64,000 nucleotides of DNA, taken from Nesterenkonia sandarakina. Lineage in GTDB: Bacteria > Actinomycetota > Actinomycetes > Actinomycetales > Micrococcaceae. Positions within the stretch are counted from its first letter, which is position 1. Every line of letters begins with the position of its first letter. Below the pieces are notes generated by a model. It searched no databases and was not told the DNA's origin. It saw nothing but the letters and a program-made list of their open reading frames with translations. Location of the stretch: positions 2,728,001-2,792,000 of the forward strand of contig NZ_JACCFQ010000001.1 of NCBI RefSeq assembly GCF_013410215.1. The letters are read 5' to 3'. Below, in pieces: positions 42,537 through 45,207 of this stretch. A program made the translations under genes and the position numbers.

Positions 42537-44087
42537 TCAGAAGAGTGCCGGCTGCGCCGGCCCCGCCGCGGCGCCAGCGAGTCCACCCTGCGCCGGCACC
42601 GGGGAGTCCGGATCATTGCGTTCCCGCCACATCAGGTCCGCGGGCGCGTCGAAGCCGTGGCGACGCCTGGCCGCGCGCGCCGAGTCAGCCAGCCAGTGCC
42701 GGTACTCCTTGGAGGCATAGGACCCCCCGCCGTAGATCCGGCGATACTTCGCCACCAGCGCCGGATACTCCCTGGCCAGCCACGCCATGAACCACTCCCT
42801 GGCGCCGGGGCGCAGGTGCAGCGCCCCGGTGGTGACGTAGCTGGCTCCGGCTTCGGCCAGCGCGGCATGCAGCGCGTCGATGCGCTCGTCGCCGTCGGTC
42901 AGCCAGGGCAGGATCGGCATGGCCAGCACGGAGCACTCCAGCCCGGCGTCGGTGATCGATCGGATCAGATTCAGCCTCGCCCGCGGGTCAGGTGTTCCCG
43001 GCTCCACCTTCTGCTGCAGCTCAGGATCCAGCACGGCCAGGGACACGGCCACCGAGACGGGCACCTGCTTAGCGGCCTCCTGCAGCAGCGGAAGATCCCG
43101 CTTGAGCAGCGGCCCCTTGGTCAGGATGGAGAACGGCGTCCCGGAGTCTGCGAGCGCCCGGATGATTCCGGGCATCAGCTGGTAGCGGCCCTCGGCGCGC
43201 TGGTAGGGATCGGTGTTGGTCCCCAGCGCCACGTGTTCGCGCTTCCAGGAGGGCCGGTGCAGCTCGGCGCGCAGCACCTCAGCGACATTGGTCTTCACGA
43301 TGATCTGGGTGTCGAAGTCGCGTCCTGCGTCGAGGTCGAGGTACTCGTGGGTCTTCCGCGCGAAGCAGTTGTGGCTCACCACACCGTTGGCGATGAAGTC
43401 ACCGGTGCTGGTGGTGATGTCAATCAGAGATTCACTGCGGCCCAGCGCCTCGATCCCGGTGATCGACAAGGAGTCGCTGGTCTCCACCAGGCTTCCCACG
43501 GGGCTCGCCACAGCTCCTGCGTCCGCCGGCTCCGAATACGACTCAGCAGACATGCCGAGCCCGAAGCCCATGAGTCGGTTGTGGTCCGTCAGAGCTGGAC
43601 GCCGCGCCCCCTCCTCGGAAGGGGCCACATACTTCCAGCCACGCTCTGTCAGGAACCGGTGGTCTCCGCTGGCCACAATTTCTGTGCCGTCACGGAGGGT
43701 GACGTGGAAAGCAGGTTTCTCCGTGCGCCATTTCGCCGACACTTCCGAACGGACGAACCGGCGATACTTGCCATCGAACTCTGTGCCAACGACGGCATCC
43801 CCCACCCTGACATCCCGGAGCAGCTTCTGGCGACCGTCCGCCATCAGAATCAGTGTCTCCGGACTCAGGCAGTACACGCACTGATGCAGGCAGCCCCGGG
43901 TGGGATTCACAGTCCAGGAGAAGGGCATGTTCGACTGACCCGGCACCTTGTTCAGCGCGGTCTTCGCGGCCACCTCGTGGAAAGTCACACCCTCGAACTC
44001 CGGGGTGCGCACCGAGCGCATCAGCCCTTTGAGCGGGATGAGCGCAGCCGCCTCACCCTCCTGCACCGCCTGACCCTGCCACCTCAT
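42537..44087 (-). CDS. Rv2578c-type radical SAM protein interrupted by an intein
   Basis: A 516-residue precursor. Without the intein the host protein is about 348 residues. The [4Fe-4S] motif CLHQCVYC is split: the N-extein ends QCVY at residue 72 and the C-extein begins CFARKTHEYLDLDAG at 241. The SAM domain continues with IIVKTNVAEVL, HVALGTNTDPYQRAEGRYQL and SILTKGPLLKRDLPLL, as in the SplB-like/Rv2578c family. Mature protein needs splicing to form the cluster site. An SOS-type box (44096-44111) precedes the ATG. It probably acts in DNA repair or nucleic-acid modification, but the reaction is unknown. Confidence 0.93.
   Translation of the reverse strand: MRWQGQAVQEGEAAALIPLKGLMRSVRTPEFEGVTFHEVAAKTALNKVPGQSNMPFSWTVNPTRGCLHQCVYCLSPETLILMADGRQKLLRDVRVGDAVVGTEFDGKYRRFVRSEVSAKWRTEKPAFHVTLRDGTEIVASGDHRFLTERGWKYVAPSEEGARRPALTDHNRLMGFGLGMSAESYSEPADAGAVASPVGSLVETSDSLSITGIEALGRSESLIDITTSTGDFIANGVVSHNCFARKTHEYLDLDAGRDFDTQIIVKTNVAEVLRAELHRPSWKREHVALGTNTDPYQRAEGRYQLMPGIIRALADSGTPFSILTKGPLLKRDLPLLQEAAKQVPVSVAVSLAVLDPELQQKVEPGTPDPRARLNLIRSITDAGLECSVLAMPILPWLTDGDERIDALHAALAEAGASYVTTGALHLRPGAREWFMAWLAREYPALVAKYRRIYGGGSYASKEYRHWLADSARAARRRHGFDAPADLMWRERNDPDSPVPAQGGLAGAAAGPAQPALF
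43368..43871 (-). other. Mini-intein (168 residues) in the radical SAM gene
   Basis: Residues 73-240 of the precursor. It begins CLSPETLILMADGRQKLLRD (block A, Cys1), has the block B histidine in TEIVASGDHRFLT, and ends SLIDITTSTGDFIANGVVSHN (blocks F and G), with penultimate His and terminal Asn before Cys+1 of the C-extein. Between blocks B and F there are only about 70 residues, too few for a LAGLIDADG homing endonuclease, so this is a mini-intein. Confidence 0.93.
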
Positions 44088-44095
44088 GGAGCTAT

Positions 44096-44111
44096 TCGAA
44101 CATAGATTCGA
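44096..44111. promoter_or_regulatory. SOS box (LexA site) before the radical SAM gene
   Basis: TCGAAC-ATAG-ATTCGA, one base from the actinobacterial LexA consensus TCGAAC-N4-GTTCGA, 9 bases upstream of ATG 44087. On the minus strand it overlaps TATGTT, a possible -10. Confidence 0.75.
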
Positions 44112-44124
44112 ATCACTGTCGAGG

Positions 44125-45207
44125 TCAGCCCACCAGCAGCAGCACCGATGCCAGCCCGGTCCCCACCGCGAGCACCGTGCCGCCGGCGCCGAGGACCAGC
44201 GCAGACCCGCCCTCCCGCAGCAGTCGCCGCAGGTCCACCGAGGCCCCGACGCCGACCATCGCAGTGGTCAGCAGCATCGTGGTCACCTCCGCGGAGAAGT
44301 CGAGGGCCGAGTTCGGCAGTTCGGTCACCGAGCGCAGCGCCATCATCGCCAAGAAGCCCAGCACGAAGAGCGGGATCAGCGGCGGCCGCGGCCCCTGCTC
44401 CCCACCCGCGGCGGCAGCGCGTCGCTGTCGCCGGCTCAGACTGATCCCTGCCACCACCGGGGCCAGCAGCACCACCCGGGCCAGCTTCACCAGCGTCGCG
44501 GTGGCCAGCGCCGCGGCGCCCACCACTCCCCCGGCGGCGACCACCTGTCCCACCTCGTGGACGCTGGCCCCGATCCAGACACCAATCGCCTCCTCTCCCA
44601 GACCCAGAAGCGCCCCGAGCGCAGGCAGCGCCAGCAGCGCCAGGGTGCCGTAGAGGGTGACCACGGCGACTGCCGCCGCAGCCGCGGACTGGACGGGAGC
44701 GCCGTCGTCGTCCTTGCCGTCGCCGCGGTCGATCGCCGCCGCCGCGGCGGCCACCGCAGAGGCCCCGCAGATCGCGGTGCCGGTGGCCAGCAGCATGGTC
44801 ATGCCCCGCGGCGCGTTGAGCGCACGGCCCAGCGCGATCATCCCGAAGAAGGTCACCGCCACAGTCAGCGCGACGACGACAAGCACCTCCCAGCCCAGCC
44901 CGAGCAGATCCCCCAGAGCCAGCTGAAGCCCGAGCAGCACGATCCCGGCGCGCAGCAGCTTCTTCGCCGCCCAGCGCAGACCCGGTTCAGCCCAGGACGG
45001 CACCCAGCCCAGACTGCGCAGCGCGATCCCGGCGAGCACCGCGATCAGCAGTCCGGAGACCACCGGGATCAGCTCTGCGATCAACCGGTGCGCGGCGACC
45101 GCGAGGATCAGCGCCAGCGCCACGCCGGGAAGGGCCTCGGCGGTGCTTCGCCAGAGGATGTTCAGCCGTGAGGTCAGCGAAGCGGTGCGGGAGGAGTCTG
45201 TAGGCAC
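44125..45207 (-). CDS. YeiH/UPF0324-family putative sulfate exporter
   Basis: A 360-residue polytopic membrane protein with about ten spans. The family signature MLLATGTAICGASAVAAAAA is present, followed by WIGASVHEVGQVVAAGGVVG and LGFLAMMALRSV. These proteins are annotated as possible sulfate or anion exporters. Starts at GTG 45207, 6 bases behind TATGCT. It diverges from tgt; the two start codons are only 35 bases apart. Confidence 0.87.
   Translation of the reverse strand: MPTDSSRTASLTSRLNILWRSTAEALPGVALALILAVAAHRLIAELIPVVSGLLIAVLAGIALRSLGWVPSWAEPGLRWAAKKLLRAGIVLLGLQLALGDLLGLGWEVLVVVALTVAVTFFGMIALGRALNAPRGMTMLLATGTAICGASAVAAAAAAIDRGDGKDDDGAPVQSAAAAAVAVVTLYGTLALLALPALGALLGLGEEAIGVWIGASVHEVGQVVAAGGVVGAAALATATLVKLARVVLLAPVVAGISLSRRQRRAAAAGGEQGPRPPLIPLFVLGFLAMMALRSVTELPNSALDFSAEVTTMLLTTAMVGVGASVDLRRLLREGGSALVLGAGGTVLAVGTGLASVLLLVG

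Follow-up and report, generated by a model that had tools for sequence, protein, structure and literature searches.

The window, by which we mean the whole 64,000-nucleotide stretch of the Nesterenkonia sandarakina genome analyzed here, contains a gene for a radical SAM protein that exceeds the cutoffs of the models for both the intein-containing Rv2578c family (NF038136; 756 bits, cutoff of 700) and the Rv2578c family (NF038135; 516 bits, cutoff of 430) and that also matches PF04055. These family models themselves say nothing about function or regulation and include no clamp motif. A gene for a YeiH-like transporter lies upstream on the same strand and ends at position 44125, leaving a gap of 37 bases; the promoter is therefore squeezed into about 37 bases and would serve only the radical SAM gene. 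The features of the locus are collected in the table.

Features of the radical SAM locus, in window coordinates
Feature	Position	Strand	Basis or remark
Intein-containing Rv2578c-family radical SAM protein, 516 aa	42537..44087	-	NF038136, NF038135, PF04055
Sliding-clamp-binding-like motif QPALF, last five residues	42540..42554	-	Compared with the consensus QL(S/D)LF (PMC9690074)
Third cluster cysteine, C241 in precursor numbering (intein +1 residue)	43365..43367	-	
Mini-intein, 168 residues, Cys73 to Asn240	43368..43871	-	Insertion point directly ahead of the third cluster cysteine
First two cluster cysteines, C66 and C70, of CX3CX2C (C70 is intein residue -3)	43878..43892	-	
Start codon ATG	44085..44087	-	Predicted transcription start at 44087, inferred from spacing
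-10-like element TCGAAT	44094..44099	-	Overlaps the box, 17 bases after the -35-like element; inferred from alignment
Predicted LexA operator (SOS box), TCGAACATAGATTCGA	44096..44111	.	Match in the window and conserved position in orthologues
-35-like element TCGACA	44117..44122	-	Inferred from alignment; in orthologues, TTGACA occupies the equivalent place relative to the box

Within the gap lies the 16-base palindrome TCGAACATAGATTCGA, which reads TCGAATCTATGTTCGA on the gene strand. A check of the window sequence placed it where the initial annotation had reported an SOS box, one base away from the LexA consensus TCGAACN4GTTCGA, although the distance to the start codon is 8 bases (44088 to 44095) and not the 9 bases given there. 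The palindrome is the only match with two or fewer mismatches in the whole window. Shuffled windows are expected to hold about 2.3 such matches; taken by itself within the window, the box is therefore not significant, and the case for it derives from its position, its genome context, and its conservation. On the gene strand, the deviating base changes the half site from GAAC to GAAT; since the same position also varies in the recA, dnaE2, and umuD-like boxes of the same genome, GAAT is no sign of a weak site.

When orthologues are aligned on the box, TTGACA-like letters appear at position -11, followed by a 17-base gap to a hexamer. The final T of this hexamer is conserved in 98% of orthologues and lies 7 bases ahead of the first base of the start codon. 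The -35-like element, the 17-base spacer, and the distance to the start codon together imply a leaderless promoter. The putative -10 element shares bases with the box, which agrees with the earlier proposal that the box overlaps the likely promoter. Judged by this alignment, the layout fits a leaderless promoter covered by LexA, with the repressor sitting between the -35 and -10 elements.

The genome (3.0 Mb in two contigs, C1 and C2) encodes LexA at C1:1945002-1945679 and has copies of the box upstream of canonical SOS genes. The looser pattern TCGAAN6TTCGA has 11 exact copies in the genome, versus 2 for the reversed pattern used as a control. Six of the 11 are located upstream of recA (TCGAAGATATGTTCGA), lexA (TCGAAGATCACTTCGA), uvrA (TCGAACGTTTGTTCGA), a cassette that includes DnaE2 (TCGAATGTATGTTCGA), a umuD-like gene (TCGAATGTATGTTCGA; C2:84957-84972, L119 2958-2973), and the radical SAM gene, whereas four others fall in or beside coding frames with no evident SOS link. 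LexA and RecA were named by model matches, uvrA and dnaE2 by reading translations, and the umuD-like gene by a partial match to the LexA model. All three genes that had been singled out beforehand for such a genome search (recA, lexA, and dnaE2) thus have the box. The umuD-like gene with its own box lies on the 103-kb second contig, and the SOS set may therefore reach a possible plasmid. One further perfect copy (C1:1642564-1642579; L202) is flanked by a cytosine methyltransferase gene on one side and a divergent ATPase-like gene on the other and looks like a possible candidate for an SOS-linked defense or modification locus. Two more degenerate LexA-like boxes are found near a divergent LysM-type gene adjoining lexA (L112 2380-2415).

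Conservation of the box was assessed in two samples. The first was a scan of 84,980 species, each represented by one genome; its best matches included 79 distinct orthologous loci, 78 of which were parsed. The best box had 0, 1, 2, and 3 mismatches in 15, 56, 6, and 1 of these loci, respectively, and hence two or fewer in 77; it ended 8 bases before the start codon in 46 loci, 9 bases in 29, 7 bases in 2, and 11 bases in 1. At the background rate, 0.05 matches would be expected by chance in a 12-position window. The second sample, 246 evenly drawn Actinomycetota genomes, yielded 65 parsed loci, including the window's own, and the box was present in 58 of them, most with the core GAACN4GTTC free of mismatches. 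The species in both samples are related, so that these counts are not independent events, but many families are spanned. The 58 include one locus (L193) in which the match lies 66 bases from a start and is probably due to chance. The seven loci without a box comprise five PA0069-like distant relatives, one locus cut by a contig end, and L153, which from its sequence seems truly to lack a box. That a few orthologues (L153 and probably L193) have no good box counts against the operator reading. Streptomyces-like loci have a perfect core but different outer bases, with the box about 30 bases before the start. LexA is present in 236 of the 246 Actinomycetota genomes, and its absence is therefore uninformative as a natural experiment. 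Clustering of the flanking frames revealed no phylum-wide partner gene, the clusters being mostly alternative frames of the radical SAM gene itself.

The fold of the enzyme was compared by using a predicted model of an intein-free orthologue (L055; pLDDT of 75, low in the cluster loop). Its best matches among solved structures in VIA-align were spore photoproduct lyases (SPL), with Z scores of 15.0 to 15.5 over about 260 to 270 residues, followed by lipoyl synthase as the next family (Z score of 13.2); Foldseek placed lipoyl synthase and SPL jointly at the top. Searches of solved structures with the intein-bearing precursor alone returned only inteins, and a search with the alignment profile matched SPL weakly. 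The shared fold is no proof of a shared function. The CX3CX2C cluster motif, complete after splicing, aligns by profile with that of SPL, and the two families also share an EPGT block. In SPL, Tyr98 lies next to the cluster and Cys140 is the hydrogen-donor cysteine, roles that are reflected in the PDB titles of mutants. All aligned relatives of the window protein have Phe at the Tyr98 position, which is the state of the SPL Y98F mutant (4k9r). The only invariant cysteines in an alignment of 22 sequences are the three of the cluster, and no conserved cysteine comparable to the donor Cys140 was found among these sequences. Therefore, although SPL (4fhc and relatives) provides the best fold match, the enzyme should not be named SPL, as both the Tyr98 and the donor-cysteine features are absent, and a DNA substrate is not secured by the similarity. 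For annotation, this is a warning: the active-site residues do not back the usual label of "DNA repair photolyase / spore photoproduct lyase."

A feature that SPL does not share is the C-terminal motif. The bacterial clamp-binding consensus is QL(S/D)LF and is usually C terminal (PMC9690074). The window protein ends in a variant of this consensus, QPALF, which is short and has no Leu at motif position 2. Among 104 relatives, Q..[LMI][FLWY] occurs within three residues of the end in 80, versus 0.3 expected from shuffled tails, and a relaxed form occurs in 93, versus 0.5 expected. The ends of distant family members are QLSLL, QLTLL, QLALL, and similar. This recurrence makes recruitment by the sliding clamp, and with it a DNA-directed function, likely. 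PA0069-like radical SAM proteins (L207 to L211) end in QPSLFD or QPTLFD and have no SOS box. The motif was consequently rejected as a marker of SOS control, and to judge from these sequences, it may be older than that control. Our literature search, which covered a minority of the subscription papers, found no report of a clamp-like motif in radical SAM proteins.

The intein places cysteines at positions -3, 1, and +1, and it therefore has the Cys(-3)/Cys1 pair of the MoaA-type redox-trap inteins. In the Pyrococcus abyssi MoaA intein, a disulfide between Cys -3 and Cys1 blocks splicing under oxidizing conditions (PMC10663303, PMC3922620). Both inteins interrupt Fe-S enzymes and have a Cys1 positioned to pair with an N-extein Cys -3; redox-controlled splicing is published for the P. 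abyssi intein and would be a possibility for the Rv2578c intein. Cys -3 is an obligatory cluster ligand, so that the redox-trap geometry comes for free. Redox gating of splicing is possible in this family and, as far as the distribution of box and intein goes, would be separate from SOS control: orthologues with and without the intein carry the same box across Actinomycetota, and a link between the two was rejected on that account. The initial annotation had read damage induction and the intein as joined features of an enzyme that also senses redox or metal state. The joining does not hold, as each occurs independently of the other, and such sensing is no more than compatible with the intein geometry. 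Even among Nesterenkonia species, the length of the inteins at the third cluster cysteine (L033 to L111) varies between about 150 and 350 residues, and intein-free species are interspersed among intein-bearing ones.

Overall, we consider it very likely, close to certain, that LexA controls the radical SAM gene, and the comparative evidence, together with published Streptomyces venezuelae chromatin immunoprecipitation sequencing (ChIP-seq) and mitomycin data (PMC9380542), lends strong support to this proposal of the initial annotation. Under such control, LexA bound at the box would cover the stretch from the -35 element to the -10 element and start of the leaderless promoter and block RNA polymerase. 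RecA filaments formed on damaged DNA would induce the self-cleavage of LexA, after which the radical SAM gene would be transcribed. From the precursor product, the intein would splice itself out and the CX3CX2C motif would be rebuilt, and the mature enzyme would combine an SPL-like radical SAM barrel with a flexible tail that ends in the clamp-binding-like motif. DnaN would most likely recruit this enzyme to replicating or damaged DNA, where it may apply radical chemistry to a DNA lesion that is not necessarily the spore photoproduct. The enzyme is thus very probably made upon DNA damage and probably helps DNA repair. Taking the operator, the modeled fold, and the tail together, we put the probability of a functional operator driving an SOS-induced, clamp-recruited, SPL-like enzyme that acts on damaged DNA at roughly 0.8. 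A more specific version, in which a phylum-wide enzyme induced by SOS and delivered by the clamp repairs a lesion other than the spore photoproduct (for example, a cross-link) without the cysteine donor of SPL and in which redox-sensitive splicing at the cluster site adds gating in intein-bearing species, is speculative, and we regard it as tentative at best.

The strongest competing explanation accepts LexA control as real and holds that the enzyme modifies RNA, protein, or a metabolite and is merely coinduced by damage. Radical SAM folds are versatile, lipoyl synthase and others score not far below SPL, and the catalytic residues of SPL are not conserved; however, the conservation of the clamp-binding-like tail, the clear lead of SPL in the full-length fold comparison by VIA-align, and the association of SOS control with DNA repair genes render such a non-repair role unlikely. 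Still less credit is due to the idea of one designed switch, in which the SOS response would supply the precursor and redox-sensitive splicing would activate it. Its appeal lies in a Cys -3 and Cys1 arranged as in the redox-trapped MoaA intein, and it is weakened by the ligand role that Cys -3 has to play anyway and by the independent occurrence of box and intein.

Two other alternatives concern the box itself. Sites of ArsR-type repressors can resemble the mycobacterial SOS box (PMC8151990), and the palindrome might accordingly serve a different regulator whose site resembles that of LexA. Such a regulator is very improbable, given that the same box precedes recA, lexA, uvrA, dnaE2, and umuD-like genes of the same genome and that LexA binds a box at a radical SAM gene of Streptomyces (PMC9380542). 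A chance match, which the rate in shuffled windows would by itself allow, has practically no probability left and was rejected, being already refuted by the fixed position in 78 loci and the phylum-wide conservation. LexA control of an SPL-like, clamp-recruited enzyme remains our preferred reading. A family that has so far had little more than a model name would thereby gain a definite place, open to testing, in the SOS response across the phylum, including Mycobacterium and Streptomyces, and the clamp-like motif indicates where the enzyme may work and how this can be tested.

The closest published counterpart is the S. venezuelae radical SAM gene vnz_31145, which is bound by LexA in ChIP-seq and induced about 20-fold by mitomycin C (PMC9380542). 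Like the window gene as predicted here, it is a damage-induced radical SAM gene under LexA, and it is described as similar to UV-lesion repair enzymes and may be an orthologue of the window gene; unlike the window gene, it has a weaker box of its own, TCGACCGTTCGCTC, at -61. In M. tuberculosis, a "DNA repair photolyase" given without a gene name, a possible counterpart of the window gene, is reported to be induced in a RecA-dependent way (PMC8151990). The initial annotation counted Rv2578c itself among the LexA-controlled genes of this species; our literature search, limited to papers other than the primary ones, found none pairing Rv2578c with LexA. In alpha- and betaproteobacteria and Bacteroidetes, splB is under SOS control (PMC3323433, PMC8565304), and these are likewise SPL-like radical SAM genes controlled by LexA, although they belong to other phyla and have other LexA motifs. 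Archaeal SplB-like genes neighbor NreB, a member of a PCNA-linked repair gene family (PMC4929162). A link to the sliding clamp and to mitomycin damage is suggested there as well, but it runs via the neighboring Nre family and not via the tail of the SplB-like protein itself. SOS control of an SPL-like gene is therefore an already known kind of arrangement. The present analysis adds that the operator is spread across the phylum with a fixed geometry, that residues differ from those of SPL, and that the tail carries a clamp-like motif.
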